Assembly: GCF_008831285.2 (NCBI RefSeq)
Contig: NC_045143.1
Span: 14,099,151 to 14,163,150 of the forward strand
DNA length: 64,000 nt
Source: Nymphaea colorata
Lineage: Eukaryota; Streptophyta; Magnoliopsida; Nymphaeales; Nymphaeaceae
Direction: 5' to 3'
The notes beneath the pieces were generated by a model. That model was not told where the DNA came from. It saw only the letters and a program-made list of their open reading frames with translations, and did no database searches. Position 1 is the first letter of the stretch. Each line of letters starts with the position of its first letter. Both the position numbers and the translations under genes were made by a program. Of the stretch, positions 4,925-50,800 are shown one piece after another.

Positions 4925-5404
4925 AAGACCAGGGGGGTTAATGGATGGATGGAGAATGGAAACCCCTTTTGCAAGTTAAAACTTTTCATAGTACAAGTAA
5001 TTGTTAGAAAGTCTTCTCCCGGCTCTCAGTCAATGCTGAAATACTTTTTCCGGCATTTCTTAACTGCAGGAGTGCACACATTACGCACCACATGCACACC
5101 TCGTGAGGCCTGTGCATCAGATTAAGTACGTTTCACCTTTACTTTTTGAGGTGTTTTATTACTTGATGTGGTGGCATCACCTTAATGTGCACACATCTAA
5201 TAAAACTAGTGGTTTTATCTTTTTAAAGTCACCCAGCTATCTAATCAAAGTAGTTTAATTTAACATTATTAACTGTTAAAAGAAAAATAAAATAAAAAGG
5301 TAATGGTATTAATTCACACTTTTTCCATCTCGCTAGTTAGATGGCTGGACAGCTCGAGATACCCAGAGTCATTGTCCATTCATATACATGTAATACATGA
5401 TGTT

Positions 5405-5439
<35 letters not shown>

Positions 5440-5549
5440 CTAGTTAGAAGGCTGGGCAACTGGAGATACCTAGCGCCATCATCCATTCATATACATGCAT
5501 ATATGATGTTCAATATATATATATACACACACACACATTTGTAAATCTT

Positions 5550-5715
5550 GGATCTTAATGTCGAGCATTTGGTAATTCAAAGTTTGTTTAATACATTCAG
5601 CGTTACTTAAACTTGCATTGTTGCATCCTTGAGGATCTTAATGTCGAGCATTTGGTAATTCAAAGTTTGTTTAATACATTCAGCGTTACTTAAACTTGCA
5701 TTGTTGCATCCTTGA
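5550..5715. repeat. Perfect 83-bp tandem duplication
   Basis: Two identical 83-bp copies, 5550-5632 and 5633-5715, each starting GGATCTTAATGTCGAGC and ending TTGCATCCTTGA. The unit is the linker module of the surrounding array. Perfect identity means this local duplication is recent. Confidence 0.92.
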
Positions 5716-5934
5716 ACCAGTAATTTTTTTTTTTTTGGGGTGGTGGGGATGCCGTTGCTGGATGGATGGAGAATGGAAACTCCTTTTTCAAGTTAAAGCC
5801 TTTTATATGGTACAAGTTGGAATCAAAAGTCTTCTCCCTGCTCTTGGTCAATGTTGTTGAGATACTTCTCTTTGCTTAAGTGTGGAACTGCACTTATCAT
5901 GCACCCCATGCACACCTAGTGAGGCATAGGCATC

Positions 5935-6115
5935 TGAGGGGCGGAGGGAGGGGGGGCCCGCCTAGGCCATGGCCCCACCCTGGCAAAATGAAAAAAAAAA
6001 ATTACATTGAAAAAAAAAATATTTTTTAATCACTCTATGTATTTTTAGATTTAAATTTAGTTTGGCCCTACCCAGATCCAGAGGTTGGACTGCTCTGGCT
6101 CCGCCACTGCTGATG
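5935..6115. repeat. GC-rich repeat fragment inside the array
   Basis: A GGGGCGGAGG block at the left and TGGCTCCGCCACTG at the right form imperfect inverted ends around an A/T-rich core. It interrupts the second unit of the array. A similar GGCCCC plus GCTCTGCC fragment occurs at about 59289-59484. Probably a decayed small transposon, with no clean target duplication. Confidence 0.45.
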
Positions 6116-13376: not shown

Positions 13377-13653
13377 TGTTAGAATATCTTGTATAGGGAA
13401 CCGGGTCTGGATATGGTCCCGGTCCCATGGGCGCGGGTACCGAGAGTGGCTCGGTACCCTAGGCAGGTCTCCCTCTTTTATAATCCCACTTATTGTGTAA
13501 TTGTTGATTAAGTGGAAATAACATTCTCTCTCCTAGGGTTGCGGTTTTGCCCCTAGGTTAGAGCTTCTCCGTGGTTTGTCACCTCTAACTGAGGTTTTCC
13601 CCGTATATCGTGTGTTTCTTCTCCGTTCTCTTCTTGTGTTGATTGTTTCTACA
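13377..13653 (+). repeat. 5' LTR of element A
   Basis: Starts TGTTAGAATATC and ends TTTCTACA. It holds a degraded inverted repeat near the start (ACCGGGTCT/GGTCCCGGT), which is intact in element B. Confidence 0.95.
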
Positions 13654-13666
13654 TGGTATCAGAGCC
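13654..13666 (+). other. Primer binding site of element A
   Basis: TGGTATCAGAGCC directly follows the LTR. It is the usual plant copia primer site, complementary to the 3' end of initiator-Met tRNA. Confidence 0.92.
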
Positions 13667-13942
13667 AACGCGTGTGGGTTTTTTGGTGTGATCGTGGAGT
13701 TTCCGCCTGTTTCCGCCGCTGTTGGAGTTCCTTTTTTTTCCGCCGCCCGTCGCCGCTGCCGTTTCCGCCACCACCGCCGCTTGGACTTTCTTTGCGCCCG
13801 CCGCTGGTTTGTGCACCTGTCGCCATCACCGTTGTTCCGCGCCTCCGCCGCTGGTGACCTGCGGCGCCTTCGTCGCCTCTTGTCCTGTTGTCTCTTGTCC
13901 TGGTGCCGCGTTTCCTAGTGTTGGGTATTGCTTGTGATTGTG

Positions 13943-16900
13943 ATGGCCGAAGAGATGACTTCCAAGATCGATGCTGCCTTTGACTCGGGCAGTAATACCA
14001 AGAACGAGAACTTGCCTGTTCAAGTCACCTCCATTCGGCTGAACAAAGACAACTATCTCTCTTGGTCTACTGCACTTGAAATAGGGATTACCAGTCGCGG
14101 TCGCCTTCCCTATATCACTGGGGAGAAACCTGCACCCTCTAAAACGGATCCACAATGGGCGACTTGGGCGTTGGAAGATAGCCAAGTTAAAGTATGGATC
14201 ATTAGTTTTGTTTCCGCTGATATTCAGCCTTTGATCTTGCGTAAGTCGACTGCATATGACATGTAGACTGTGCTTGCAAGAATGTATGGCCGTAAGAAGA
14301 GAGTCTTGCGCACGTACCAAATCAAACGTGGCATCTACTCTCTTAAACAGGGTGACTTGTCTGTGAAATCCTTCTTTGCAGCCCTGAAGACTAAATGGGA
14401 GGAACTGGACTATCATGTGAATGATGACTGGCATTATGGTTTTGATCATGCCTTGTACTGGGAAAAAGAATGGATGGACCGAACTTTTATTTTCCTTGGA
14501 GGATTACGTGATGAATTTGAATCCATTAGGAGCCAAATTCTCAATTGTGATGAGATTCCTGGGATTGAGGAGGTGTATGCCCGAGTAGAATCTGAGGAAC
14601 AACGTCGCCAAGTCATGCATATTGACTCCAGCCATGGGAGCTCTCCCTCAGCGTTTGTTAGCCGTGCCTCAGGGACTGGACAACGTCCTGTTCGGCGTTG
14701 TAGTCATTGTAACAAGTTGGGGCATTCTGTGGATTTCTGTTGGGATATTCATCCTGAGAAGAGACTTGTTCGTGGTCGTCCTCCTTCTAGTCAGCGAGGG
14801 TCTTCTGTGCCTGACTCTAGTCAGGGTTGTTCGTCAAATGTTGAAAAATCAAAGCTTTCCTCTGATCAAATCAAGGAATTGCAAGCTTATATCAGCCGGC
14901 TTTCTACTACACAAGAGGAAAGTTCCACGTCCGAGGGAGCTAAGTTAGCTCAAGCTCTTGTGGCCACAAGTGATCAAGGTAATTCCTCCTTTGGTGATTG
15001 GATTGTTGACAGTGGGGCTACACATCATATGACAGGGGATCTTAAGTTGTTTCAAGAATACAAATTGTCTTCAGGGTAGCAACGCGTGTCTATGGCTGAT
15101 GGGTCTTCTATCTCTGTGGCTGGAAAAGGGAGTTTGTCCTTGTTGAATAAATATCGTCTGCATAATGCTCTTCATGTTCCCAATATTCCTGTGAACTTGT
15201 TATCTGTCAGCAGTATTACCAAAGAACTAAATTGTAATCTAATTTTTTCTGCTGACCATTGTTTCCTATAGGACTTGGTGACGGGGAAGAAGATTGGGAT
15301 TGGTTCGGTTATTGATGGACTCTACAGACTGCCCGTGCAAGTTGCGTCTGTCTTGATTTCAGCCACTAGTGGACAGTTGTCAGGTGTGGAAGACAGGTCT
15401 ATCATTATGCGATGGCACGAGCGTCTTGGACATCTCCCATTCCAGTCGATCAAGAAGTTGTTTCCAAGGCTTTTTACTTTTGTTTCCATTGACTCCTTCA
15501 CATGTGAAGTGTGTCAGTTGGCTAAGCATGTCAGGGCGTCGTACCCTATTTCTTTCAATAAAACCACCCGTCCGTTTGCTTTGGTTCATTCTGATGTTTG
15601 GGGTCCTTCGGGAGCACCCACTTGTCGTGGTTTTCATTATTTTATGACTCTTATTGATGACTACTCTCGTTGTACGTTCGTGTACCTGTTGAAAGAACGT
15701 AGTGACGTTCCGGTCATTGTCAAAAATTTTGTGGCTTTTGTTGAGACTCAGTTTCAGACCTCTGTTCAGGCTTTCCGCACTGATAATGCTAGAGAGTATG
15801 TCTCTCAATCTCTAGATGATTTCTTGAAGAGCAAGGGTATTGTTCATAAAACGTTCTGTAGTTATACACCTCTCCAAAATGGCGTGGCTGAACGGAAGAA
15901 TCGCCATTTATTAGATGTCACCCGGGCTATTATGTTCCATCGGCAAGTTCCTAAGCGCTACTGGGGTGATGCACTTCTCACTAGTGCCCACCTTATTAAT
16001 CGTATGCCTACCCGTGTGTTGCAGGGTCATTCCCCATATTCTATGCTTTGGCCTACTCAGAATCCCTGGCCTCTTACTCCTCGGGTGTTCGGGTGTGTCT
16101 GTTTTGTTCATGACCATAGTCCCACCCTCAAGAAACTTGACCCTCGATCTATCAAGGCTGTCTTCCTGGGGTATTCCTCCACTCAGAAGGGATACAAATG
16201 TGTTGATCCTACCACTTCTAAAGTCTATGTCTCCCGGGATGTTACTTTTCATGAGCATGAGGCATACTTTCCTGTGAATCCTCTTCAGGGGGAGTGTCTA
16301 GGGAACAGTAGTGAAGAGTATTCCTCAAATCAATTGATACAGTTTATGGATTTCTTGGATTACAAGGTTAGTCACAGTGTGGCAGACACAGTCAGAGATG
16401 ATAGAGATAGTCACATGGACGGGGGCCTTGTTGATAATCAGTCCACAGCTCGTGATCACTTGTTTGGCCAGGTGTACACCAGGAAGAAGACAGATGTGGT
16501 TGAGAATGTTGATATAACCAATCCCAATCTTGTGAGTTCCCCGGATGACCCAAGTCAAATCAATGAAGAGCTTCCTATAGCCTTGCGCAAGGGCACCAGG
16601 TCATGTACTTCTCATCCTATTCAGAGATTTGTCTCTTATGCGAAACTTAGTAAGGATTACAAATGCTTTATTACATCCTTGTCTAAGTCTGTGATTCCCA
16701 GGTGTGTGGAAGATGCTAGAGAGGATCCTAAATGGCTACATGCCATGACAAAGGAGATGGATGCCTTGGCGAAGAATGATGATACTTGGGAAGTAGTTGA
16801 TATTCCCAAGGGGACTCATTTAGTTGGTTCCAAGTGGGTGTTCAATGTGAAATACAAACCGGATGGTACCGTGGAGAGGTATAAGGCTCGTCTTGTTGCA

Positions 16901-18241
16901 AAGGGGTTCAGCCAAAAATATGGTATTGATTACCTTGAAACCTTTGCCCCTGTTGCTAAACTGAAAACTGTGAGGGTCATCTTAGCACTTGCCGTGCAAA
17001 AGAAGAGCATGGATCAGCTTGATATCAAGAATGCATTCTTGAACGGCTATCTATAAGAAGAGGTCTACATGAGCATGCCTCCTGGATATGTTCAAAACGG
17101 AAAATGTTGTCATCTCAAGAAAGCCTTGTATGGATTAAAGCAGTCTCCTAGAGCATGGTTCGAAAGGCTGAGGATAGTGATGAATACTAATGGATACAAA
17201 CAGGAAAATGGTGATCACACCTTATTCATTAAGCAGAGAAATGGCCTGGTGAGTCTTCTTCTTGTGTATGTTGATGATATGATAGTCACAGGTGACGATG
17301 AAGAAGAAAAAAGGAAGATGAAGGAAATGTTAGCTGCCGAATTTGATCTTAAAGATCTGGGTAAACTAAGGTACTTTCTGGGGATCGAGATTGCTCGGTC
17401 AGAGACAGGGCTTGTTATGAGCCAAAGGAAATACACTCTGAATCTTTTAAAGGAGACAGGCAAACTTGGATGTAGGCCCTTTCTTACTCCAATGGAGTCT
17501 GGTACAAAGATAAGCATCAAAACTGGCAACATCCTAAATGAGGAAGGAAAAGGGCGGTATCAGAGGCTGGTTGGTAAGCTCAACTATCTTACTCTTACTC
17601 GCCCTGATATTACTTATGTTCTGAATGTGTTGAGTCAGTTCATGCATGCTCCTACTGATTGTCACTGGAAGAGTGCAGAAAGAGTGTTGGGGTACCTAAA
17701 GAATGACCCAGAGAAATGATTACTATATACTCAGCAAGACCAACTTAATACTGAAGGATACTCTGATGCAGATTGGGCAGGATGCACTGATACTAGGAGG
17801 TCTACCACAGGATACTGCATCTTTCTGGAGGGTACCCTGGTTGTATGGAGAAGTAAAAGGCAGGAAGTTTGTTCTAGATCCAGTGCTGAGGCTGAATACA
17901 GGGTTGTGGCTATAGGAGTTACAGAAATGTTATGGTTAAAGATTCTCCTAGTTGATATTGGTGTTGAAACGGAAGAAAAAATGAAGATGTACTGTGACAA
18001 CAAGTCTGCGATTAACCTTGCAAACAATCCCGTCCTGCATGACAGAACTAAACATGTGGAGATTGATCGCCATTTCATACGGGAACGCATAGATTCCAAG
18101 GAGTTGATCCTGCCGTATATGAAGTCTGAAGATCAAATTGCCGATGTTTTAACCAAAGCCTTATGTACATCTCAATTCGAGAAAAATGTGAGCAAGCTTG
18201 GCATGTTTGACATGTATGCCAAGCTTGAGGGGGAGTATTAG
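13943..18241 (+). pseudogene. Element A gag-pol polyprotein with five stop codons
   Basis: One continuous frame carries gag with a CCHC knuckle (CSHCNKLGHSVDFC), protease ([11 protein letters not shown]), integrase ([26 protein letters not shown]), reverse transcriptase ([11 protein letters not shown]) and RNase H ([14 protein letters not shown], ending DVLTKAL). In-frame stops end at 14266, 15079, 15271, 17056 and 17719; no frameshift was found. Compared with element B, several stops look like single transitions at Trp or Gln codons. Small length differences from B (for example a missing Trp codon before MDQLD) are multiples of three. Not translatable as a whole. Confidence 0.93.
18227..18235 (+). 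other. Polypurine tract of element A
   Basis: GAGGGGGAG immediately precedes the 3' LTR and would prime plus-strand synthesis. Confidence 0.85.
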
Positions 18242-18512
18242 AATATCTTGTATAGGGAACCGGGTCTAGATATGGACCCGGTCCCATGGGCGCGGGTACC
18301 GAGAGTGGCTCAGTACCCTAGGCGGGTCTCCCTCTTTTATAATCCCACTTATTGTGTAATTGTTGATTAAGTGGAAATAACATTCTCTCTCCAAGAGTTG
18401 CGGTTTTGCCCCTAGGTTAGAGCTTCTCCGTGGTTTTTCACCTCTAACTGAGGTTTTCCACGTATATCGTGTGTTTCTTCTCTGTTCTCTTCTTGTGTTG
18501 CTTGTTTCTACA
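18236..18512 (+). repeat. 3' LTR of element A
   Basis: Same 277-bp length as the 5' LTR. Its first dinucleotide is mutated from TG to TA. The stop codon of the pol frame lies in its first bases. Confidence 0.95.
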
Positions 18513-23835: not shown

Positions 23836-26800
23836 CCTAAGTCACATGGGTACTTCAGTAAGGTCCACGTACCTGTGTCGCCGTACCCATACCCAAAATG
23901 GGTACTTTGACACTTGGGTACCTATAGATCCAAACTGTTTAATTTTTCTTTGATTTAATTTTTTCCACCTTACTTTTTATTCTATTCTTTGGATGTGAAA
24001 ATTCGATTGATGTTCATATTTGACTAAAGGGCTGCTTGGTTGTCCATATGTTTAAAGTTTTTCATAGGTTTCTTAAACACACTGCTGCAAGAGCCGTTGA
24101 TATATATTTTCTATGTTATTTATTTGTTTATGTTGATGTATATTCTTTATTTTGATACATATTTTCTAAGTATTTCTTATTGTTTATATATATATACGGC
24201 CGTACCCCCGCACCCAAGTTTTTTTAAAATGCTCAGTACCCGTACCCGCACCGGTATCCGCACCGGCACCCGTACCCGTACCTATGTGACATAGATATAC
24301 CCTCACGCACCCACCACACCCAATCTTTTTGGGATGTGCTCCACCAGCACCCACACCCGCATTGATGTGACATAGAGCGTGCTACTCATGCCCTACCAAT
24401 TTCCTTAGATCTCATCTAATTTTGATTTTCTCAACAAGAAAGACCATGAGATATGCATACTTGCATGTAGTGTCATATACTTGTTTCTTTTTTGCATTTT
24501 CTTGGCAAGCAAAATCTCGGTACCTGAATATATTATTGGATATGAACATATACTATACCATATAAAAAAACAAAATAAACATTGAAAGAGGTAATAGCTA
24601 AAGAACCTTACAAGATACTGAATATAGTTCTACAATGTACCAATTTTTGCAATACATCAACAATCACGGAATATTTGTATATACGCTTGTGTGTGAAGCT
24701 GTGACCATATGTATAGTAATAATCAGAATAATATAACTACTACAACAACAACAATAATAATAATTGTAACAATAATAGGTAAGGTATTTCAATATCTAAC
24801 AAGGTTCTTAGTTATGTTTTATTGTTTCCTTGTTCAATTGTGCATCATTGTTTTTCTCCAAGAGAAAGTTTGATTGCAGGGAACACTGCATTCCAAGAAC
24901 AATGAGCCCCATGCCCCACAAACGATGGATGCAATACATGTTCAGGATCCACTGGATCCAACATCCCACCCAAAAGGTGGAACGTGCTAACAAATACAAC
25001 CACTCCCACACTGCATGCAACATGCAATATGTTCTGTTCCAACCACTCCAAGAATGAAAACAAAACATCCTCCAGGCTCCAACAACTAAGCATATCAACT
25101 GATGAAAATGATGGGCCTAACCTTGAATTCATTTTCCTATGTTACCTGACAAATATAAAAGGATGTTCCATATGAATACTTTTTCCTTAAAGGCATGCAC
25201 ATTACAAGCACTTTGACCCAATGAAGTAACTCAGTGTTTAGTATAATTCAGTTTATCATGATAAAATTGAGATAAATGTCTGCAATCGTAACAAAACTAA
25301 TTGTCTAATAATTTTGTTCTTTTCTTCTTCAAAATTTTTATATTGATGGCAGAAACAAGTTTCTTTATCATTAGATCCACATATGTTTCCCTTTGTTGTG
25401 GTCCTTATCATTTCCCAAAATTTTACAATGATGGAAGCTACCATAGCCACAAATATCGTTCTCGGAAAAACATCAGTGAGGTTTTTCTCGGGTAATTTTC
25501 TCGAAAAAATCTTGGGAAAGTCTCGGCAATTTTTTGAAAAAATAGACAAAAATTTATGTAAAAACAAAATACGCAAAAAACTAAGGAGGAGACATAAAAT
25601 AGAAATTAAAACTTGAAAAACAAAGAAACAGAACTTGAGGTCTAGATTCTATCATTCTACAATTGTAGCTTGCTGCTCCTCAATTAAATAGTTAAAAGAC
25701 AAAACAAAATTTGGGAGTGAAGGGAAATCTGTAAAAAATAAATAAATAAATAAATAAAGCTAGAAAAAATAAAACTAACTGCAGGTGGTTTCTCCCTTCT
25801 CACATCTCCAACTTCTCTCCAAAGGGCAGAAAGGCCTAAAACATATCGTGGAGGTTAAGAAGAGGACTTAAAAGCCCCAACTTTGTTTTTCCTTTGAACC
25901 GTTTTTACCATTAAAAAGAACAAAAGAGTTCAAAACTGCCCTTTTAAAACCTTTACTTTACATAAACTACCCCTTTTAAAAAGGAAATGGAGCACGTGCA
26001 GTTTAAACTTTTAAATTTCAAAAAATACCAAGACTGCCCTTGTTTGAGCGCAGGTTTAAACTGGGACAAAAAAACGCGATATATATCTTTTGGCAAGATT
26101 TTGAAAATATTACGGCATTTTGCCATTTTTTCTGTTTTCTTGTTTTTATCGTAAATATCACAATATTTTCAAAAATATCACAATATTTGTGGCTATGGAA
26201 GCTACAACCCGGCTAGTTTCCTCATCATCAAATTCAAGGCACCCCTCTCTTGCCTACCAAGAAGCCTTTCCACTGCTCCAGCATTGCATAATTTGCATTG
26301 GATACAGTGGTATAAATCCCTTGGCTTCTAAGTTGAAGAACCAAACCACTGAACCCAGATGTGGTGAGCCCTTTTGGGCTTTTTGATCAGTAAATCAACA
26401 ACAAATCCATAAGAGCACTAACACTTTTTAATAACTTTTCATTAAGCACTAAAAGGCACGTGAGACATATGACAACCATTTCAAGCTGCAAGCAGGAGCA
26501 AATTTCAGCCACCAACAAGTTAGTATGTAGCATCTGATCATACTTCTAAATGACCTAACAGTGGCTGAACCTTTACAATACTTTAGTCTCTGGTCCACTA
26601 GCCAATATAATGGTCCAATAAGAGAGATGAGAAATCATACTGATTTAGCACATTCCTTTTGTAGACAAGAACTATATAACAATTAATCTAATGAAAACTC
26701 CAAGTAGCCAGAACTATAATAGAAGCTTTTGTCAAAGAACAAAAAGCCTAAACAATGACCTAAATGAGGAACAGAAGACAACTTACGTTCCCTCTTCAAC

Positions 26801-29800: not shown

Positions 29801-32800
29801 CAGTAATATAACAACCTGTGTATTAAAAAATATAGTCGCCAGGTCATTGTATTCCTTATCCTTGGAGCAGTAAAACTACACAGGGAACAAAAAAGATAAG
29901 TAAGAATAAAGATTGAATCCACCAGAAAGACAACAGGCAATTATCATATGAGTGCACAAGCATGGACAACCACCCAATAGATATTAATCAGCTGTGGTAC
30001 CTAAAGTAATCTTTGTTCTATAGTATAGCACAGCATCCAGTTTGTGCTAGCAAGTTAGGAGGATATTAAGCTTCACCTTCTGCTTCAATGCAATGATATC
30101 AGAAACCCTATAATCAAAAGCATAGTCAGATGGGTACTTCCATAAGGTCCACGTACCCCCGTCGCCGTACCCGTACCCAAAATGGGTACTTTGACTCTTG
30201 GGTACCTATAGATCCAAACTGCTTAATTTTACTTTGATTTAATTTTTTTCACCTTACTTTTTATTATATTCTTTGGATGTGAAAATTCGATTGATGTTCA
30301 TATTTGACTAGGGGGCTGCTTGGTTGTCCATATGTTTAAAGTTTTTCATAGGTTTCTTAAACACACTGCTGCAAGAGCCGTTGATATATATTTTCTATGT
30401 TATTTATTTGTTTATGTTGATGTATATTCTTTATTTTGGTACATATTTTCTAAGTATTTCTTATTGTTTATATATACATACGGTCGTAACCCCGCACCCA
30501 AGCTTTTTGAAAATGGTCAGTCCCGTACCCGCACTGGCACCCGTACCCGTACCTATGTGACATAGATCAGAAGATTATACATCCTGGTGGATGGCCAGTT
30601 TAGAAAAGGATTCATGTAACGGTCAATGTTTTCAGCCCATCGAGAGAAAATTGTAGGAATTGATTCACTATTAGGATCCATACAAAGGTGTTTGATTCCT
30701 ATTCGGATGCCAGGAATGGAACATCCAGTTCCTTATCTTCCAGGAACAGGTTGAACAAATATGATTGCAAGGTTACCCTTGGAATTCTGAAAACACGGCA
30801 TTCTAGGACACAGGAACCAAAATGGGCACACATTCTGCATCCTGCATTTGTGTCAGTAAGAGATATGCACACCACGCATGTGTTCCATTAATCAAATGCC
30901 TCATACAGGACACTTTCTCATGCAAGGGAGCTTTGCAATAAGAGAAGATCTTACACTCTCTGAATGGTATCACCAGAAATTTTGAAGGAAGTTACTATGA
31001 ATAACAGGGTTGTGAATGAAATTTTCAAAAAAACACATGCTGGCGAAGGTAAACATGAGGAAATATATGTTGGCAAAGGTGAACATGAAGAAGCAAATAG
31101 GAAGGAAAGGTGCCTACAGGGCAGTTTACCAGATTGGCTATGAAAGGTGTGCATCATAAATTTTGTACTTCATTGGTTTAGGCAAATTGAGATTTATCTA
31201 TAAGACTGGAATCTGGAAAGAAAGACCTCCAAATGGCTACCCAGACTTACAAAAACAAGCATGGTTTGGCATAATCAGAAGCCTGCCCAAGCCCATTTTC
31301 ACTATCACAATATACATGAAAATATGTATGTGTTCACAAAACAATTCTAGGCTTATAAATACAGCAACTACTCAATTAAAGCCGCACTCCTCAGCTCAGC
31401 CACCATTTTAGCACGACCCGCACTGCATGAATATGAGAGGGAGAGAGAGAGCAGTGTGCAATGGGTGGGAGTGCCACACGCTCTTGTGGCAACTAAATTT
31501 ACTACAAGGATGGAACAAAACTCAATCCACATATATGAGTAACAATTATATTGATGGATGGTGGCAATTCACAAAAAAATTTGCAGTATTCAGGGAAAAA
31601 TTGAGCTTGTTGGGCAAACTGGAGAAAAGGTTGGCTTTGTGGAAAGCAAAGTTGCTCTCCTATGGATATGTGATGCTATCTTTACAAGCACTCTTGCAGA
31701 TTGAAAGTGTGCTGCAAGTGAAGAAAAAACAAATCAATTCACCTTGTTCTACATAGACAAGTTGTATATTATAGAGAGATTAAATCCAAGCAAACTTGAA
31801 AGCATAGCCACAAATATCGTTCTTGGGTTTTTATCGGCAAAGTTTACATCAAGTATTTTTCGGCAAAGTTGTTTTTCTTGGAAAATCTCAGAGTTTTTTA
31901 AAAAAATAAAAAATCAAAATTTTAGGTAACAATACAAGAAATGAAAATCTAATAATTGTTGTATTGCATTTAGGAGGACACGTGAAATACCTAAAACAAA
32001 AGGAAATAAAACAATGAAACAAAAGTTGAAAAATATAAAACAGAAAATGAAAAAAAAAATAAATGAAAAAAATCGAGATAAAATCGCATTAAAATCACGA
32101 TAAATTGATTTTTAACGATTTTTTCAAAATATTGTCATATTTTCTAGTTTTTTCTTTAACATTGTGATATTTTCAAAAATATTGCGATATTTGTGGCTAT
32201 GGTGCTTGAAAGCTGGCTATGAAACTGCTTGTGATATTTGATTTCATTAAAACGAAAAAAATATGTTAGATAGCAAATAACCAATTCACATGGGGCCTTA
32301 GTTGTCAAGGCTTCTAGGCGCTGCCTAGGGAGCCAATGCCTGGTGCCTAGGGGCGCCTGCCCTAAAAAGGTGTCCAATATTTAGCAGACTTTTATTTTTT
32401 TACTAACACTTCAGTTCTTTGAGAGCTTTCTGTAATCAAGTCATATCTAGCTAAAATTAATTGCCATAATCAAGAATTGCATTTAGTCTGGAAATGAAGA
32501 TGAAGAAATTTACCAATATTTAACAAACTTTTACTCTGTTACTTGTGTACTGATTATTTGTTCCGTGAATTGATAAGCATATGTACAAATTTTACAACAT
32601 AGTAATTTAGGAAATGTTTTATGCTTCATGTGTGGACTATCATCTACATAGTTCATATTGTTTCTTTGCAGCTCCAACATCAGACTATGTTGCAGTGATG
32701 TCTGCACATATTTCTCTGATTACTAGACATACACTAAACAAGAGAAATTGGTGATCTTTTTATCATAAACCTAGGTTTTAACATGGGTAAGAAGGCTGGC

Positions 32801-35800: not shown

Positions 35801-38800
35801 AAAGGCAGAGAATGAATACACCAATCCACAATAGAGTTCTCAACCTATTATGAAGGCCCAGCCAATGATATCACATATAGTAAAGAAATTACATTTGGCT
35901 GTACCCATATTCCACTAAGGTTTCCAAGCAACGTTAGCATCACATCCTGAATGAATTGGACACATATACAAGTACATTTCACAAAATGTCAAAAAGATTT
36001 CAATTTCTCATGTCTGAACAAACAGCTCAGAGTTTTGGTGATAGTTGACCTGAGTATGTGACCAGATATGGGATAATAAATTCACTAACATGCTTTCAAA
36101 AATTTTTAGGTTGAATCAGGAAGTTAGATGCTAAGAGATTGGAAACTCTGGTTCTACATTACCCAGCCACCTAAATCAACATGTTACAAAAAGAAACATT
36201 AATAATGAATTTTCCACAGTTCACAAGTCATAAACAAATCTGCTGACAGAAACTTCCACAGGCAATGTCATGGCATGGGACATTGTCATACGATGGTGAC
36301 TCAAACTAAGGCCAACAAGCAAACTTGTGCATTATTGGGCTGTCTCGGCCATATTCATTAATGTATGCAGGTCATGATAAACATAACATAAGTAGCCCAC
36401 CAGAAAGAGAGCATGAATGTGCCACGTAATTCAATGTTGTAAAAGGCGTACCATAATGCATATCCGCTAGGCCAACCTATCCGCCGTTTGTAACGTAACA
36501 TAAATGTAGCGTAGCGTATCATAGAATTAATTTTTCAATTCAAAAAAAAATAAAAAGTAGGAAAAGTAGAGAAAAAATCAGGAAAAATGTATTCTACATA
36601 AAAAACTCATCACACATAAAGAACATTCATGATCATCATTCATAAGCCATAATATATCAACAATACACTTACAAATGAGATTTCATAGATTCATAATAAC
36701 ATAATAAGCATCCATCAGAAGTTTAAAGTGTTTTACATTATATCACAAGTTCACACAACTTATAAGTGTTCATTGTCAAGTGCCAAATATCATGATTATC
36801 ATAAAAAAAATGATAACCATCATTATCTTCATCCTCGCTTTCTTTTGTCTCCAAATGGAATGTCCTCACCAACATATGATCGATTTTTCTACAAAACTAG
36901 CAAAACCTCCTCTTCCCACAACTCCTAAGATGTTTAGAAAGCGGAACAGAGGTGTTGTTTTACAAAGAAACACAAAAATAGGGGATTCAAGCCCCTTTTT
37001 TCGCTTTGTCCTTTTATCGCATGATACAGGCAATACGCCTACAACACACTGTGTATCAATGTATTGTAGGCACATTGTATAGATTTTTCACTATACATAT
37101 CACACGATACAAGACCGTATCGTGCGAGACGGATAACACTGATGTAATTAGCTATTAACACATGCAAGCCATGATAAGCACAATAAGTGTGGTCAAATTA
37201 TTCCACCCTTCAGGGTTAGAAAAGGTAAAGCCAAAACTAATTGAGACATCCATTTTATATGCAGAGACCAAACCGAGAATATGTTTTACAAAGTATTTGG
37301 AGGTTGAGGCAACAAATAGCTCCACTTAGCTTGTCCAAAGCAAAGCTACAAATATTGTTCTCAGGTTTCTAATGGCGATGTTTTTATCGGGTATTTTTTG
37401 GCAAAGTTGCTTTTCTTGGGAAAATTTTGGCAAAAATCTCTGCAAATTTTTGAAATGTGAACAAATAAAACAAATGAAAAACTAATAATAAGACATCAAA
37501 AAACTAGATAAAATGACAAAATAATGTCACAACAATGATAAAAATGGTTAAGTTTAAAGGTAAATCTATGATGCCACTGACCTTAAAAAAGAGACAAACG
37601 AAAAACGGGAAAAAGATGTGAAAAAATGCAATAAATACATTTTTCATGTTTTAAAAAAAATGGGTTTTTTTCTTTCTTTTTTTTTGGCATTTTTCTCGTA
37701 AATTGTGATATTTTCAAAAAATATCACGACATTTGTTGCTACGGTTGAAAGGCTTCAAAATCTATTCAATCTATATGCAGAGTTGCATGTGTGACGAATA
37801 TGATGTAACATGCCATCAAACCCAGGATCCATTTATTTTGCCTTTAAGTTCCATATTTGTGCCAACAAATGTCCCTTTAAGTATGGCACACTAAGTGCAA
37901 TCAGTATTCTTATCAAATACATGTGCATCTCAAAAATTGAATGTTCATTCATATGTAGTTCAAGAGAGTAGAATCAAAACAATTTTGCAGTTCCACAAGT
38001 AACAAAAGAATGGGAAGGAGTATAATCTATGCACATTATGGATGGGCGGTAGGAATATTGTAAAGTGTGTAACTAACCTGAATTGATCAAGCCAATAGTT
38101 AGATGCATAACATAATGTACTGTAATGTAAGATAAAAAAATCATAAATTTATTTTTTTATGTGAAAAAATTCAAAACCAATTTTAAAAAATTAAGAAAAG
38201 TTAAAACCACAGTCACAAATAACGTTTCGCAGTTTTAAACGGCGAGGTTTTTCTGGGGTATGATAGGGAGACCTTAGAAAAAATGGGAAAAATTCGGTAA
38301 ATTTTTAAAAATTTAAAAAAACTAAAAATGGAGGAAAATAAAATAAGTGAAACTAATAACACAAACATTAAAAGATAAGTAGATTTGCAATAAATAAAAA
38401 AAATGAAAAAAAAAAACTGTTTGGCATTAAAAAAATGAAAAAATGAAAAAAAAAGTGAGAAAAACATGTTAAACCGCATTTTTTTTAAGTCAAAAAAACG
38501 CATTTTGTAAGTTTTAAACTGCAATTAATTTATGAAAAAAACACGTTTTTTGTGACTATGGTGACAGTTTTTTGGTGACTATGGACTGACTGTTAGAATA
38601 TCTTGTAATAGGGAACCGGGTCCGGATATGGACCCGGTCCCATGGGCACGGATACCGAGGCTGGCTCGGTACCCTAGACGGGCTCTCTACCTCTCTCTCT
38701 TATAAGCTCCACTTATTGTAAATCTGAAGATTAAGTGGAATTAATTTTTTCTCTCTCCTAGGGTTGCGGTTTTGCCCCTAGGTTAGAGCTTCTCCGTGGT

Positions 38801-41800
38801 TTTTTACCTCTTCTTGAGGTTTTCCACGTACATCGTGTGTTTCTTCTCTGTTTCTCTCTTCCGTTGCATATTTCTACATGGTATCAAAGCCAGCGCGTGT
38901 GGGATTTGCTCTGTGATCGTGTGTTTCTGCCACTGCTGGTGTTTCTATTAGCTGCCGCCGTCGTTTTTCCGCCACTGCTTCTCCTTGCGCCGCCGTTGCC
39001 GTCGCCTGTTCCAGCGCCGTTGCCGTCGCCTGTTCCAGCGCCGCTGCAGTCGTCTGTTCCAGCGCCGCCGCCGTCGCCTGTTCCAGTGCCGCGATTCTCC
39101 GCCACCGCCGTCGCCATCAAGGTTTTTCCCGCCGCCGCCAGTGTTTCTTCCGCCTCCGCCGCCTCTTGTCTGTCGTCTCTGGTACTGGTGCTGCGTCTCC
39201 TTGTGCTGGGTATTGCGTCTCTTTGGTGATTGTGATGGCATAAGAGATGACTCCCAAGATAGATGTTGCCTTTGACATGGGCAGTAATACCAAGAGCGAG
39301 AACTTGCCTATTCAAGTCACCTCTATCCGGCTGAACAAAGACAACTATCTCTCTTGGTCTGCTGCCCTAGAAATCGGGATAACCAGCCGCGGTCGTCTGT
39401 CCTATATTACTGGGGAGAAACCTGCACCTTCTAAAACGGATCCGCGATGGGCGACTTGGGCATTGGAAGATAGTCAAGTTAAAGTATGGATCATTAGTTC
39501 TGTGTCCGCCGATATTCAGCCTCTGATCTTGCGTAAGTCGACTGCATATGACATGTGGACTGTGCTTGCGTGGATGTATGGCCGTAAGAAGAGAGTATTG
39601 CGTACGTACCAAATCAAACGTAGCATCTACTCTCTTACACAGGGTGACTTGTCTGTAGCATCTTTCTTTGCAGCCCTGAAGACTAAATGGGAGGAACCAG
39701 AATACCATGTGAATGATGACTGGCATTGTGGTTCTGATCATGGCTTGTACTGGGAAAAACAATGGATGGACCGGACTTTTATTTTCCTTGGAGGCTTACG
39801 TGATGAATTTGAATCCATTAGGAGCCAAATTCTGAATTGTGACGAGATCCCTGGGATTGAGGAGGTGTATGCCCAGGTGGAATCTGAGGAACAACGTCGC
39901 CAAGTTATGCATATTGACTCTAGCCATGGGAGTTCCCCCTCAGCGTTTGTTAGCCGTGCCTCAGGGACTGGACAGCGTCCTGTTCGACGTTGTAGTCATT
40001 GTAACAAGTTGAGGCATTCTGTGGACTTCTGTTGGGATATTCATCCTGAGAAGAGACTTGTTCGTGGTCGTCCTCCTTCTAGTCGGCGGGGTCCTTCTGT
40101 GCCTGACTCTAGTCAGGGTAGTTCGTCAACTGTTCAAAAATCAAAGCTTTCCTCCGATCAAATCAAGGAATTGCAAGCTTATATCAGCCGGCTATCTACT
40201 ACGCAAGAGGAAACTTCCACGTCCGAGGGAGCTAAGTTAGCTCAAGCTCTTGTTGCCACAAGCGATCAAGGTAATCCCTCACTTGGTGATTGGATTGTTG
40301 ACAGTGGGGCTACGCATCATATGACAGGGGATCCTAAGCTGTTTCAAGAATACAAATTATCCTCAGGGCACCAACGCGTGTTTATGGCAGACAGGTCTTC
40401 TATTTCTGTGGCTGGAAAAGGGAGTTTGTTCTTGTTGAATAAATATCGTCTTCATAATGCTCTTCATGTTCCCAATATTCCTGTGAACTTGTTATCTGTC
40501 AGCAGTATTACCAGAGAACTCAATTGTAATCTAATCTTTTCTGCTGATCATTGTTCCCTGCAGGACTTGGTGACGAGGAAGAAGATTGGGATTGGTTCGG
40601 TTATTGATCGACTCTACAGACTGCCCGTGCAAGTTGCGTCTGCCTTGATTTCAGCCACTAGTGGACAGTTGTCAGGCGTGGAAGACAGGTCTACCATTAT
40701 GCGATGGCACGAGCGTCTTGGGCATCTCCCATTCCAGTTGATCAAGAAGTTGTTTCCAAGGCTTTTTTCTTCTGTTTCTATTGACTCTTTCACATGTGAA
40801 GTTTGTCAGTTGGCTAAACATGTCAGGGCTTCGTACCCTATTTCTTTCAATAAAACCACTCGTCCGTTTGCTTTGGTTCACTCTGCTGTTTGGGGTCCTT
40901 CGGGAGTACCAACTTGTCGTGGTTTTCATTACTTTAAGACTCTTATTGATGAATACTCCCGTTGTATGTTCGTGTACCTGTTGAAAGAACGTAGTGAAGT
41001 TCCTGTCATTGTCAAAAATTTTGTTGCATTTGTTGAGACCCAATTTCAGACATCTGTTCAGGCTTTTCGCACTGATAATGCTCGAGAGTATGTCTCCCAA
41101 TCCCTAGATGACTTCTTGAGGAGCAAGGGTATTGTTCATGAGACGTCATGTAGTTACACACCTCCCCAAAATGGCGTGGCTGAATGGAAAAATCGCCATT
41201 TATTAGATGTCACCCGGGCTATTATGTTTCATATGTTAGAATTTAAATATTAGACATTATGTAAGTATACATATGTTTCATATATGATTTGTATATATGA
41301 ATATCTATGTATGCATAGGTGTTATGTATTTTATTTTATTTGCTTCCTTTTCGTTTTTATGTATTTTTTATTTCTTTTCTTTTTCTATTTTTACCTTTTC
41401 CTTTTTTGTAAAAGGGAACTAGCTGTTGGACCAGCTTCCAACGGCTAGATTTCTAGCCGTTGGAGCTGGCCCAACAGCCAACTCCTCCTTCTTCTCTCCC
41501 TTTCATTGTACTATATATATGGGACTGTTGTCCCTTGTTTGGTTAAGGCTTTTAGGCCTCTCTTGTGTATTCTTCTCTTGAGATTAATAGATTTGGTATC
41601 TTCTCCTCAAGTTTGAGGTTTGGTTGTGTATTACCTATTGAAGTTGTTGGGATCTTCAAGAGTGTATCTCTTGAAGCATTTGTATTCTCAAGATCAGGCC
41701 TGATTTACATGGTATCAGAGCCTCGTTTTGGCTCTTTGTGTTGCTGTCTTTCAAGCTTGGAAGATCCAATTATTACTCTTTCCTTGGAGCTGTGAAGCAC

Positions 41801-44800
41801 TCCAAGTGTTCGATATATTGTTGGCTGAAATTTGACACAAGAAGGTGCTGTTATTTTGCTGGCCTCTTTTGGTGATATTTGTGACGGGATAAAGCTCCCT
41901 TGGTGGTGAAGATTGTGGCAGTCCTTGACGCGTCGAAAGCTTCATTTTTGTGTGGCTGTTTTTCATCCTAGCACTACCTCAACGTCTCTTTTACAAGGTA
42001 CACATTATGGATGAAAGAACTTCCTCTACTCCTCTTCCCAAATTAACTTCATCAAATTATGTTTCTTGGGCAAAAACTATGGAACATTTTATTAGAAGTA
42101 AAGGCCTATGGGGACTTGTTGATGGGTCAAAAAGTGAACCTCAATTAGTCCTCACCAAGACCATAGATGGTAAAGCTCAAGAACTAGATGGAGTTGAAAA
42201 AGACAAGGCTATGAATGAATATGAGAGAAAATGGGAAGAGTGGAAGATAGGACACCACAAGATTATCACTTGGATTATTGCTTGTGTTGATACTACAACC
42301 ATGGGCCAAATAGCAAAACATAATTTTGCTCATGAAGCTTGGGAATTCCTCAAGAAAACCCACACTATGAAGGATGTGGCCTACATGTGCAATCTTCAAA
42401 TGAAGATTGCAAGTCTCCAACAAGGAGACAAGACCATTAAAGAATATGTTGGAGAAATGGAGCAATTATGGGACGAACTTGCTCTATTTGAACCCGAATG
42501 GTATGATCCAAGAGACATTGGAGTTAGAGAAAAACAAATCCAAAGGGAGAAATTTTATAAATTTATTCTTGGTCTTAGATCGGAATATGATGGAGTCAAA
42601 ACTTCCTTGCTCCATAGGCATAAAGTGCCATCTATGAACGAAGCCATAGCGGAACTTCAAATGGAGGAGAATAGACTCAATTTTTCAAAAGACAAGAGTG
42701 AAAGTGTTCTTGCTACCTCAAGACCCGGTGCTCATATGAGAACTTATAGGCCTCCTCACTTTAATCGAAACTATGAGCATAGCAATAATGGCAACAAGAA
42801 GATTATATGTTTCCATTGTCAAGAAGAAGGACATACCAAACTTAGATGTCCTAAATTGAGGAGATTTGATAAAAAGACAAGTGTGGCTGGGACAATGTAT
42901 GAAGAAAACAATCGATTTGACCTAGACAAACTTGTAAGTGCCCTCCAACCAAAGCTTATTGATGCTCTTCAACCGCTTTTCAAAGGAGGGACTTCTCCAA
43001 TCTCCGGAGCAACCGTGGCATCTACATCATCAAGTAAGTACTCTTGGATTCTTGATTCCGGAGCTTCATTTCATATGACCCCTTGTAATTCTTTGCTTAC
43101 CGAATGCACTAAGGAAGAATCGTGTCCATTTGTTAAAACCGCCGATGGAACTCCTCTTGAAATCAAATGTGTTGGGAATATTGATCAAAATTTTAATTCA
43201 AAAGTTTTTAAAATACCAAAAGTTAGATTTATTCCCAAACTTAACTTAAATCTCTTGTCGGTTTCTCAAATAACAAATCATGGATGCGATATTGTCTTCT
43301 CACAAAATAAATTTTTGATACAGGACCATCTTTCCAAGAAGACGATTGGGGAAGGTTTTAGGAAAAATGATCTCTACTATGTTGACTATTTGGATCTTTC
43401 CAACCCTACTTGCAATATAGTCAAGAAGAGTGACATTCAAGTTTGGCATCAAAGACTTGGGCATTCAAGTTTAGGAAAAATGTCTTGTATCCCTTTTTTG
43501 GAAGAGAAATGTAAAGAAATGATCTCTTGTGATGATTGTATTAAAGCCAAAATTAAGGCTTTACCTTTTGGAAATAGAAATTTTGTTGCAAAAGCACCTT
43601 TTGAATTAGTGCATTCGGATGTATGGGGTCCCGCTCCTATTATGTCTAAAGGTGGTTTGCTTTATTATGTCATTTTTGTGGATGATTACTCTCGATATGC
43701 TTGGGTTTACTTTCTTAAACGCAAATCCGAAGTCCTTATGAATTTTAAAAACTTTTACAACATGATCAAAACTCAATTTGATGCAAACCTTAAAATTTTT
43801 AGAAGTGATTCCGGGGGAGAATTCATTTCCAATGAGTTTGAAGAATTCCTAAAAGAAAAGGGAGTTATACACCAAAAGTCTTGTCCCAAAACCCCCCAAC
43901 AAAATAGAGTCGCCGAAAGAAAACATAGACATATTCTTGAAACAACAAGAGCTCTTCTTATATCAAAAAATGTTCCAAAAAATTTTTGGGCTGAAGCAAT
44001 TTTAACATCCATTTACTTGATTAATAGAATGCCCTCTAAAGTTTTAGAAAATATTTCACCTTTTCAAAAACTTTTTAACTTGGAGCCAACTTATAAAAGA
44101 TTCAAAGTCTTTGGTTGCAAATGTTTCATTTTAAATGACAAAAATGATAAACTTTCATCTAGGGCTATTCAATGTGTCTTTATTGGCTATTCCGAAACTC
44201 AAAAAGGGTATAGATGCTATGATATTGAAAAAGATAAGGTGTATGTTTCAAGAAATGTGATATTTTTAGAAGAAGAAAATGGCTTTAATGAAAATAAACC
44301 CAAGCATGAAGATGACTATTCTTTTTTATGGATAAATGATGATGATGTTGATAATGATGATGATGTCTTGCCTTCTTCACATAATGATGCTCAAAATGAG
44401 GTTGAGAATACTCCTTTTGATAGATCTTCACCAAGAAGTGATGGATCACCAAGAGAAGTTATAGTTTATAAGAGAAGGTCTCAACAAAACATCCAAGAGT
44501 CTCAACCTACTCTTAGGAGATCTCAAAGAGATTCTCATCCACCTCAAAAATTTGTTTCCTATGAGTCTTTTTCCCCAAAACATAGAGCTTGCTTATTAGC
44601 TATTCACTCTCATGTTGAACCTTCATCCTATCTTGAAGCCAAAACTAACCCACATTGGATTGAAGCAATGAACAATGAACTTAGAGCCCTTGAAGACAAT
44701 AAAACTTGGGACATTGTGTCTCTTCCTATAGGGAAAAGGACAATAGGATGTAGGTGGGTTTACAAAGTCAAGACTAGAAGTGATGGATCACTTGAAAGGT

Positions 44801-47800
44801 ATAAAGCTAGACTTGTTGCCAAAGGATATGCCCAAGAATATGGGATTGATTACGAAGAAACCTTCGCCCCTGTTGCTCGTATGACCTCTGTTAGAGCTCT
44901 TATTGCCATTGCCTCCATTAAACAATGGTCTATATATCAATTGGATGTCAAAAATGCTTTTTTGAATGGATACTTAAATGAAGAGGTATACATGGATGCA
45001 TGGTCTAATTTATATAGCCATTCAATTTACTTAGTCCACATATTAGTTGTAATAATAATAACAACAGATGAATGAGTATGGTGGCAAGTCACTCATGAGG
45101 GACGTTTCATTGTGATGGATGCTTGTTGATAAAAAAAAAAAAAAGTGTGAATTAATAGTAGATAACAAAAATATTTAATTTTTTCTTCTTCTAATTGAAC
45201 CATTATCAAGGGCTTCGTACCCTATTTCTTTCAATAAAACCACTCGTCCGTTTGCTTTGGTTCACTCTGCTGTTTGGGGTCCTTCGGGAGTACCAACTTG
45301 TCGTGGTTTTCATTACTTTAAGACTCTTATTGATGAATACTCCCGTTGTATGTTCGTGTACCTGTTGAAAGAACGTAGTGAAGTTCCTGTCATTGTCAAA
45401 AATTTTGTTGCATTTGTTGAGACCCAATTTCAGACATCTGTTCAGGCTTTTCGCACTGATAATGCTCGAGAGTATGTCTCCCAATCCCTAGATGACTTCT
45501 TGAGGAGCAAGGGTATTGTTCATGAGACGTCATGTAGTTACACACCTCCCCAAAATGGCGTGGCTGAATGGAAAAATCGCCATTTATTAGATGTCACCCG
45601 GGCTATTATGTTTCATAGACACGTTTCTAAGCGCTACTGGGGTGATGCTCTTCTCACTCGTGCCCACCTTATTAATCGTATGTCTACTCGTGCGTTGAAT
45701 AGTCGTTCCCCTTATTCTGTGCTCATGCCCACTCATAACCCTTGGCCTCTTACTCCTCGGGTGTTTGGGTGTATTTGTTTTGTCAATGACCACAGTCCTG
45801 CCCTCAAGAAGCTTGACCCTCGGTCTATCAAAACTGTCTTCTTGGGGTATTCCTCCACTCAGAAGGGATACAAATGTATTGATCCTGTCACTTCCAAAAT
45901 TTATGTCTCCCGGGATGTTACCTTTCAAATGAACATGAGGCGTACTTTCCTGTTAATCCTCTTCAGGGGGAGTGTATAGGCAACAGTGTGGAAGAGTATT
46001 ATTCAAACCAGCTGATTCAGTTTATGGATTTCTTAGACTACAAGGTTAGTCACAGTGTGGCAGACACAATCAGAGGTGATAGAGACAGTCATGTGGAAGG
46101 GGGCTCTGGGGATGAACAGCCCACTGGCCGTGATCATTTGTTTGGCCAGGTGTACACCAGGAAGAAGAAAGATGTGCTTGAAGATGTTGATGCAACCAAT
46201 CCCAATCCTATGAGTTCCCCGAATGAACCAAGTCCACTAAATGAAGATCTTCGCATAGCCTTGCACAAGGGAACCAGGTCGTGTACTTCTCACCCCATTC
46301 AGAGATTTGTTTCATATGCAAAACTCAGCAAGGATTACAAATGCTTTATTACTTACTTGTTTATGTCTGTGATTCCCAGGTGTGTGGAAGATGCTAAAGA
46401 GGATCCTAAATGGCTAAAGGTCATGACAGATGAGATGGATGCCTTGACAAAGAACAACACTTGGGAAGTGGTTGATACTCCCAAGGGGACTCACTTAGTT
46501 GGTTCCAAGTGGGTGTTTAATATGAAGTACAAACCTGATGGTACTGTGGAACGGTATAAGGCTCGCCTGGTGGCAAAGGTGTTCAGCCAAAAATATGGAA
46601 TTGATTATCTTGAGACATTTGCTCCTGTTGTTAAACTGAAGACAGTGAGGGTCATCTTACCACTAGCAGTGCAAAAGAAGTGGAGCATGGACCAGCTTGA
46701 TGTCAAGAATGCATTCCTGAACGGCCATCTAGAGGAAGAGGTCTATATGAGCATGCCTCTTGGGTATGCCCAAAGCGGGAAATGTTGTCATCTCAAAAAA
46801 GCCTTGTATGGACTAAAGCAATCTCCTAGAGCATGGTTTGAAAGACTGATGGTAGTAATGAAGACTAATGGATACAAACAGGGAAACGGTGATCACACCC
46901 TATTCATTAAGCAGAGAAATGGTCTGGTGAGCCTTCTTCTTGTATATGTTGATGATATGATTGTCACAGGTGACGACGAAGAAGAGAAAAGGAAGATGAA
47001 GGAGAGGTTGGCTGCTGAATTTGATCTTAAAGATCTGGGTAAATTAAGGTACTTTCTGGGAATAGAGATTGCTCGATCAGAGACAGGACTTGTTATGAGC
47101 CAAAGGAAGTACACTCTGGATCTTCTAAAGGAGACGGGTAAACTGGGATGCAGGCCCTTTCTAACTCTAATGGAGTATGGTACAAAGATAAGTATCAAAA
47201 CTGGTAATATCCTGGATGAGGAGGGAAAAGGACGATATCAGAGGCTGGTTGGTAAGCTTATTTATCTTACTCTTACTCGCCCTGATATTACTTATGCTGT
47301 AAATGTGTTGAGTCAGTTTATGCATGCTCCTACTGATTGTCACTGGAAAAGTGCAGAAAGAGTGTTGGGGTACCTGAAGAATGACCCAGGGAAAGGGTTA
47401 CTGTATACTCAGCAGGACCAACTGAATATTGAAGGATACTCTGATGCTGATTGGGCAGGGTGCACAGATACTAGAAGGTCTACCACAGGGTACTGTATCT
47501 TCCTGGGGGGTAACCTGGTGGTATGGAGGAGTAAAAGGGAGGAAGTCTGCTCTAGATCCAGCGCTGAGGCCGAATACAGGGCAGTTGCTATGGGGGTTAC
47601 AGAAATGTTATGGCTAAAGATTCTTCTAGCAGATATTGGGGTTGAAATGAAAGAGAAGATGAAGATGTATTGTGACAACAAGTCTGCGATTAACCTAGCT
47701 AATAATTTTGTTCTTCACGACAAAACCAAACATGTGGAGATACATCTCCATTTCATACGGGAACGCATAGATTCAAAGGAATTGATCCTGCCTTATATGA

Positions 47801-50800
47801 AGTCTGAAGATCAAGTCGCAGATGTCTTAACTAAAGCCCTATGTACATCTCAATTTGAAAAGAATGTTAGCAAGCTTGACATGTTCGACATGTATGCCAA
47901 GCTTGACGGGGAGTGTTAGAATATCTTGTAATAGGGAACCGGGTCCGGATATGGACCCGGTCCCATGGGCGCGGATACCGAGGCTGGCTCGGTACCCTAG
48001 ACGGGCTCTCTACCTCTCTCTCTTATAAGCTCCACTTATTGTAAATCTGAAGATTAAGTGGAATTAATTTTTTCTCTCTCCTAGGGTTGCGGTTTTGCCC
48101 CTAGGTTAGAGCTTCTCCGTGGTTTTTCACCTCTTCTTGAGGTTTTCCACGTACATCGTGTGTTTCTTCTCTGTTTCTCTCTTCCGTTGCATATTTCTAC
48201 AGTGACTATGGTGACACTTGAAACTACCTTCAACATACATCACCCATTTCCTTGTTGTCTTCAAAATAGACATGTGTGATCTTAGACTAGCATCAACAGG
48301 ATCAAAAGTGCAAAGCTCAATATGATCCTCATCCTCCACTTCCTAGGGCTCACCATAATCCATCTGAGCATCTTTTGTCTCTTTCTTTATAATTTTTTGG
48401 CTTTTGGAGACTCAAATCATTTGCATACATTTCCACTGCACAGTTGTTGGGCTATGCAGCTAGAAGGCTTTTATATCCCAAGACAGAAAAGAGGAATTCA
48501 GGTTTCCTTTTTCTCCTCCCACACCCATATCATACAATATGGGGCATATTGCACTACATTTAAAAATACAGTCCCATATTATAGGATACTAGCTAAAACT
48601 TACTAGTCAATACCAGGGTGTTACATCCCCGTAACTAGTTACAAAGGTGAAATTAGCAGTTTTCCCTATGATTACCATGTAAGATTTTGATATCTAATGC
48701 CAAACCACCGGATGAAGTTAGATGCAAGAGGAGAAGAAGAGGAATGGGCTGCACGTACAAGAGAGAGAGAGAGAGATAGAGAAGAAAGAGAGCAGCAATC
48801 CTAACGTCCTCTTGATATCATTATATACTGATTTGGTATACAATAAAATACACAAAACAATGTTAAAAAATACAAGTATGCCACCGCCCATTATGATTGG
48901 GCGTGTGGAGAAGATGAGTCGGGTCTGGTTGACCCGATCCAAATCGTACAATCTTTAACATACCATACATACAATAATGTGTTGTATGATACGGCACAAT
49001 ATGCACAACATTGGGCTTTAGGCATATCAAGTTAATATAGATTAACTATTTGATTCAAAGGAAAATCAACATTTGTACTTTCAGATATGAGGAGAAACCT
49101 GCTAGTAGCTAGGTGTGTTGCGCGTAGGAAAAAAAGAAAGTGATTCAACAAGATGTGATTTGACAATTTCAAGCATAGCATACAAAAATTCAATAATTAA
49201 GTAACGAATAGAATAGATCTGCCGTATGCCAACACCTGATAACTAACGAAGCAAAGACATTTTTATCTAAAACCAACAACTATGTCATTCCTGTTTTCTT
49301 TGAACTTTGAATACATGTTCCATATTACAGTGACTGGCACATTACGTCGTAAGTGTCTATAAAGGTCTACACTGATATCAATCAAGTGTATCATTCTTTC
49401 AAATGAAAAACATTGAATTAAGCACTAGATTGTGTCATTTCACATAATTTTGAAGAGATCGTAATGCTCACAAGGTCTCGGCGGTCACGGTCACTCTGAA
49501 ACACATGCAACCATCTTGACTGTATATGATACTTCGTTGATCCACCCTGAGTACAAACAATTGGGAAAAGAGTACTCAGATTCTAGATATGAAACCAGCC
49601 TTAAGAGAAGAGGAAGACACTGTCATGATCCATGGATATTCTAACACAACAACTAACAGAGCGAATACAAATCCCAGATTAAGAACCACAAGGAAGTCAA
49701 TAGAGAGGTTATTTGCAAGAGGAAAAAGGGAAAAGAACTTTCACCATTTATGCTGCTTCGGGAAAGCCAAGTAGAGTAAAATCATTTCTGTTCATCATCA
49801 ACAACCAAAAAGGCAGCAGTAACAAGTCAAGGTATTTTAACTCTAGGAAGAGCCCAACACTGCACCTTGATATGTTTCTGTTAGCCTCCTGCTAACATAA
49901 CTGATTACAGAGAAAGGAACACCCTGCCAAACCCTAACTGACCCCCACCGACCCCCAATCCCAGATTAGGATCCTCCCTAACCAGAGAGCCAAACACTCG
50001 AACATATCCTCCCCTAACTGAGGTTCTTAGACCTTATTTATAAGCACTTGGACATAAGCACTTGGACCAGTCTCATGGGGACCCAATCCAGAGTCTCATA
50101 CCCAGTGCCTAACAGTTTCTTATGTGATGTCTTCAACTATCAAAAAGCACCTTCGAGAAAAAGTGAACAAAAACATTAAAATAAACAGTTTATTTATAGA
50201 ACATCACAAATTTTCTAACAGGGAGAGTTTGTTGGCCTGAAGAATTTATTCAGCGCACCCTTATCCTGGATAATGTCTCCAAAGTTAAAAGGTTAGAGCC
50301 CTTTAAGTTTGACTTTTCCCCCTTATTTTTCAGCCAAAACCCCCTCATCACAAAGAAGTTATCCTGGATAAGTCCATCCACGCTTCATGGCCTGATGCAA
50401 ATTTGGAACATTCTTCTTCTGAAGTGAAGAATATCGCATGATGAACACACTTTCAGTAGAAGCCATGCAAGAATGATGCTCTTAATGATGTCAATTTAAA
50501 CAAACACACGTAAGCTATCATCAGGTACTGATGGCCGGATAAGGGTTCAGGATTTGGGACTATTCACAATCAAACTGCTATATTGATTCGCTATTTCTGA
50601 GAACTGACAATGAAATACAGGGGGAACTTGCAATCCGAGGACAATGTACCAACTACCTTCCTCACCTAAACAGCCAATTAAAATAATAATACTCCTGAAG
50701 CAAAGAATGTCCTGTGATCAAACATACCCTTAAGTTGAAATAATAACACTCTTTAAGCGACCAGTTGGGATAATGATGTTAGTTTAAGAAAATAGATATA

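Follow-up and report, generated by a model that had tools for sequence, protein, structure and literature searches.

The closest described counterparts of the locus reported here are the one-ended integrations of ASLV and HIV-1, in which one viral end is joined normally and the other is often truncated, the aberrant end being associated with host duplications of hundreds to thousands of base pairs and with inserts from other chromosomes (Varadarajan et al. 2016, PMC5041404). In the model proposed by these authors, host synthesis starts at the free viral 3' end and can switch templates, the product rejoins by homology near the integration site, and rejoining on one side yields a long duplication.

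Related repair products have been described in plants and vertebrates. Ectopic donors are copied as filler at transposon-associated breaks in plants (PMC4423477, PMC3445842); the rice fillers reported in PMC4423477 measure 1-123 bp and accompany DNA-transposon excisions, and Wicker et al. 2010, as summarised in PMC3445842, place the break during fill-in of the target duplication. The patch-type tandem duplications of rice are direct duplications found at repaired breaks together with insertions of 10-1000 bp (Vaughn and Bennetzen 2014, via PMC7407515). Repair-mediated duplications in vertebrates are closely linked, reach up to 619 bp and have been attributed to synthesis-dependent strand annealing (SDSA) (Pace et al. 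2009, PMC2671141).

The locus that we describe consists of a truncated copia element (C) lying within a second copia element (B) and shows all of the features listed for the ASLV and HIV-1 cases, with a 409-bp duplication replacing one of ~5 bp. Those cases, as presented in PMC5041404, arose in infected cells in which integrase was mutant or inhibited or a viral DNA end was defective, whereas ours is a natural, inherited copia insertion. As in the plant filler repair of PMC4423477 and PMC3445842, its filler was copied from an ectopic donor at a transposon-associated break, but here, unlike in the cases set out in those sources, the element itself is truncated, 409 bp of the target are duplicated and both donors are identified. 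It shares a direct duplication at a repaired break with the rice patch-type events, whose description in PMC7407515 features no retrotransposon end, and it differs from the vertebrate duplications, which PMC2671141 presents as captures of neighbouring DNA at breaks whose origin is not stated, its abstract describing no half-integrated element. Our literature search found no precedent for one-ended integration or cDNA capture in plant LTR/copia elements, which is not proof of absence, and the step from retroviruses to a plant copia element would be one of analogy. Since filler from distant donors has already been described in plants (PMC4423477, PMC3445842, PMC10923293), the novelty would reside in the combination of features and the complete donor record and not in the chemistry.

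Architecture of elements B and C

The window, by which we mean the whole 64,000-nucleotide stretch analysed, corresponds to C6:14099151-14163150 on a 26.3-Mb contig and contains no N bases. Genome searches were run against the 407.8-Mb assembly of 783 contigs, whose size, together with its copia content, suggests a plant. In window coordinates, the locus comprises the following features:

38591..41233, + strand: copia element B, left part, with the 5' LTR at 38591-38878 and the primer-binding site from 38879; ends at the C insertion point
40825..41233, + strand: left copy of the duplication, 409 bp; ends exactly at the C LTR
41234..41709, + strand: complete 5' LTR of copia element C, 476 bp; its exact TG end abuts B
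41710..44997, + strand: internal part of C, spanning the primer-binding site, gag, integrase and part of reverse transcriptase; the 3' part and the 3' LTR are absent
44998..45005, + strand: 8-nt insert containing CATGG; no long donor found
45006..45210, + strand: filler, copied from C8:8490392-8490597
45209..45617, + strand: right copy of the duplication, 409 bp, same sequence as the left copy
45618..48201, + strand: copia element B, right part, with SH3-like and reverse transcriptase domains; 3' LTR at 47914-48201

We assigned elements to Ty1/copia on the basis of gag, integrase preceding reverse transcriptase, TG..CA LTRs, a tRNA-type primer site next to the 5' LTR and a 5-bp target-site duplication. 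Both B and C carry Pfam matches to Retrotran_gag_2, rve and RVT_2 in copia order, along with LTRs and primer sites. The left part of B encodes gag, BBD, GAG-pre-integrase and, as far as the point where C inserted, the integrase core (Pfam). In the right part, the reading frame of B is shifted at 45883-45979, where open reading frames overlap, so that this copy of B is not intact even if the C insertion is disregarded. Two of 288 bases differ between the B LTRs. The 5-bp flanks of B, CTGAC and GTGAC, agree at four of five bases, a match expected by chance at 1.6% in random sequence, the true figure being higher as TGAC recurs locally in both flanks. A relative within the same window, at 13377-18512, is bordered by CATAA on both sides.

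Element C opens with TGTTAG at 41234, an LTR terminus placed directly after B, and its primer-binding site begins at 41710. Its sequence parts from that of its family after 44997, as seen against six copies in register, and this cut point falls inside the RVT_2 match; the Pfam end of that match at 98 of 244 is an artefact of the query piece ending at 44998. Beyond that point, three further C copies in reverse orientation start with the variant that the six show. The window copy has neither a 3' LTR nor a target-site duplication, and C gag gave no match when compared with viral contigs. A preliminary description of this DNA had placed the start of C at an exact LTR end inside B and its stop in reverse transcriptase; both placements are borne out by the TGTTAG terminus and by the departure from the family within RVT_2.

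Target duplications and age of element C

A search with the C LTR returned, in the best 40 of 455 candidates, 40 LTR places at 98-100% identity plus 40 short internal reverse-strand matches. The listed LTR places resolve into 18 two-LTR copies (the second LTR of one being found only upon retrieving the surrounding sequence), the window copy, one solo LTR bordered by CAAGT on each side and three truncated copies. Every two-LTR copy checked (18/18) has an exact 5-bp target duplication, from which we conclude that normal integration of C yields 5 bp, the length that the preliminary description had given for copia elements. The flanks of the three truncated copies (L038, L040 and L041) were compared over 690 bp per side for L040 and 1,500 bp per side for the other two, and a long duplication was found in 0/3, while the same test recovers the 409 bp in the window. 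One C copy (L047/L048, C5:97612-116218, target duplication GGAGT) holds ~13 kb inside its reverse transcriptase region; this insert includes tandem 2,087-bp units, with 4,800 bp at 99.94% identity at that period.

Compared with ten copies, the window copy of C has three private substitutions in 3,764 bp. At 1.3e-8 substitutions per site per year, a rice LTR rate that may not fit this species, C would be ~60,000 years old and B, from its LTRs, ~270,000 years old, and the 0/409 differences between the repeat copies bound the age of the duplication below ~280,000 years. The probability of zero repeat differences at the age of C is 0.52, so that the C insertion and the rearrangement may be coeval, without this being proof.

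Templates of the duplication and the filler

The two B segments at 40825-41233 and 45209-45617 are identical at 409/409 positions, which rules out a chance origin, and the identity extends by zero bases on either side. The position of the repeat boundary is uncertain by 2 bp, as the AG at 45209-45210 is also present in the filler donor. In a genome search with this segment (best 40 of 1,178 candidates), 100% identity was seen at the two window copies only. The ten nearest of the 38 further listed B places differ at 10-15 of the 409 bases, and four bases common to both window copies occur in none of these ten (0/10). The distances and the four shared bases point to this same B locus as the template, a better donor beyond the listed candidates being unlikely though possible; another B copy is rejected as donor, given that the nearest, among the best 40 of 1,178 candidates, differs at 10/409. 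That nearest copy (L042) runs uninterrupted across the insertion point (its positions 4560/4561) and is 95.2% identical to the left and 96.0% identical to the right part of B.

Between C and the right repeat lie 211 bp (44998-45208). The filler matches C8 over ~204 bp, differing by two substitutions and by one indel located in a poly-A run, and its last two bases, AG, are common to the C8 donor and to B. The donor is still in place at C8, ~2.3 kb from a serine acetyltransferase-like ORF, which indicates that the filler was copied and not moved. Among the matches listed (best 40 of 96 candidates), C8 alone accounts for the whole filler; eight further listed places match part of it at 75-87% over ~55-107 bp, showing that its AT-rich half is a dispersed motif. 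The two substitutions are slightly many (P = 0.04), which hints weakly at error-prone copying or at an allelic difference at C8.

The CATGG of the 8-nt insert also occurs just upstream, in the end of C, and the insert would shrink to 5 nt if C ran to 45000 with one substitution. We considered C8 as its source and found one exact GCATGGTC in ~13 kb (0.4 expected), located within the serine acetyltransferase-like ORF, which we take as chance. The joints share 0-2 bases only, and the CATGG local repeat and the 2-bp AG at B are too short to diagnose polymerase-theta end joining, a process marked by microhomology and short templated inserts at its joints.

A source for the filler inside the window was likewise rejected: a 53-bp match near 7.3 kb on the minus strand scores above all 500 shuffles, yet it falls well short of the C8 match, and its motif is present in the C8 donor too. 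The region at 4932-7830 of the window holds a family of diverged direct repeats spaced roughly 450-1,000 bp apart, which includes an AT-rich motif also found, on the reverse strand, in the C8 filler donor.

These results uphold the preliminary description in reporting a perfect 409-bp repeat that brackets C and filler, and filler at the closing joint (8 nt plus ~204 bp from C8). The ~215 bp that it called foreign come close to the 211 bp measured and have, for ~204 bp, a donor on C8. Its proposal that the right-hand end was copied from a C-free B stands for the C-free template and falls for the suggested use of another B copy, in view of the locus-specific bases (best 40 of 1,178 candidates).

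Origin of the locus

The 409-bp duplication is very probably a real feature formed by repair synthesis. This supports the earlier view of an insertion accompanied by templated repair over a plain target-site duplication, the two-LTR copies of C that were checked having duplications of 5 bp. We lean towards a one-ended (aberrant) integration of the young element C into B as the origin. An exact LTR terminus is joined at 41234, the other end is irregular after 44997, ~204 bp of C8 sequence are appended and a 409-bp duplication from the same locus replaces the short target-site duplication.

In this scheme, C cDNA would attack B and integrase would join the left LTR end correctly, leaving the other cDNA end unjoined and truncated in reverse transcriptase. 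Host repair synthesis would then extend the free C end, adding ~8 nt of local or untemplated sequence followed by ~204 bp from C8, and would jump at the 2-bp AG match to a position in B lying 409 bp upstream of where C inserted. Copying of uninterrupted B would proceed past the insertion point, its template being the homologue, the sister chromatid or, at the half-joined site itself, the other strand, and the product would rejoin the right arm of B by homology. As the second join falls on the side that is already joined, 409 bp of target would be duplicated instead of 5. A half-joined site keeps its second target strand continuous and would thus offer a C-free B template on the spot, a sister chromatid or homologue being equally suitable. 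We infer that integrase made the left joint, that a host polymerase did the copying and that these steps belong to one event. The ages do not contradict a single event, but had C inserted normally and been broken shortly afterwards, the sequence would look no different. The lack of a long flank duplication in the three other truncated C copies and the few bases shared at the joints (0-2) also weigh against this reading.

Such a later break is the strongest alternative, although we consider it unlikely. C would have inserted normally with a TCATA duplication, a subsequent break would have removed its 3' part, and SDSA on a C-free allelic B, with filler from C8, would have closed the gap. The end product would be the same as that of a one-ended integration, the required C-free template and the same-locus donor would fit a homologue in a heterozygote, and templated filler by SDSA has been described for plants (PMC4423477). 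However, this route has to fit two events into the brief existence of C (three private substitutions in 3,764 bp) and takes more steps in all, whereas one-ended integration dispenses with a complete C carrying a TCATA duplication. A search for a second copy of the right flank found none among the best 40 of 341 candidates, leaving no trace of an intact C at the site within that set. In the right flank itself, a 288-bp repeat at 48673-48960 recurs at 39 further places among the genome-wide matches listed, at 78-95% identity.

Less likely still is a staggered break in B, in which a 409-nt overhang would be filled in on both sides and a broken C cDNA end would be captured together with a C8 fragment by end joining, as in a patch-type tandem duplication, integrase playing no part. 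This would explain the perfect identity and the same-locus origin of the repeat with no other template, and it has parallels in the insertions of 10-1000 bp with tandem duplication in rice (Vaughn and Bennetzen 2014, via PMC7407515) and in the T-DNA capture and fillers from other molecules known in Arabidopsis (PMC10923293). The left end of C nevertheless coincides to the base with the LTR terminus, a precision more readily expected of integrase than of end joining.

Uncollapsed assembly overlaps can give a long exact repeat around an insert, which is the pattern seen here, and the preliminary description had named a misjoin of C-bearing and C-free haplotypes as its main alternative. We regard such an artefact as improbable. 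The absence of N from the window speaks against it. So do the two joints that it requires, neither of which shares more than 2 bp, and the 204-bp segment that it must take from a third locus without matching that locus exactly: with two substitutions and one indel, the filler is more than C8 sequence put in the wrong place, although a C8 allele absent from the assembly might account for the differences. The single right flank (best 40 of 341 candidates) also disfavours a misjoin, and the outer flanks of B agree at four of five bases as for one insertion, an argument weakened by the local recurrence of TGAC.

Finally, reverse transcriptase readily switches templates and the filler contains a poly-A run, but an origin by switching between RNAs of C and B and a C8 transcript, with recombination of the chimaeric cDNA into B, is very improbable. 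The poly-A run is also encoded at C8, the four private bases shared would require B RNA made from this one copy, and the left LTR end would have to be accounted for by other means.

Later illegitimate recombination is the usual explanation for truncated LTR elements in plants. If the locus did arise by one-ended integration, failure at the second end may be a natural outcome of integration in plant LTR retrotransposons, with host repair finishing the insertion as it copies one template after another, from other chromosomes and from the target, a generalisation that we put forward tentatively. Half-finished integration, and not later breaks, would then account for some of the filler, long direct duplications and truncated elements found in plants. 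Because the locus is young and both of its donors are identified, it provides a concrete and countable signature: the element is truncated but has an exact LTR on one side, the filler is ectopic, and the long repeat of the target carries copy-specific variants. With this signature, the frequency of failed second-end integration would become measurable in assembled genomes.

Two other duplications were noted in the window, away from B and C. A pair of direct repeats at 23840-24139 and 30124-30423, at least 300 bp long, 95% identical and 6.3 kb apart, possibly represents the LTRs of another element, and positions 5550-5715 form a perfect 83-bp tandem duplication of two copies.
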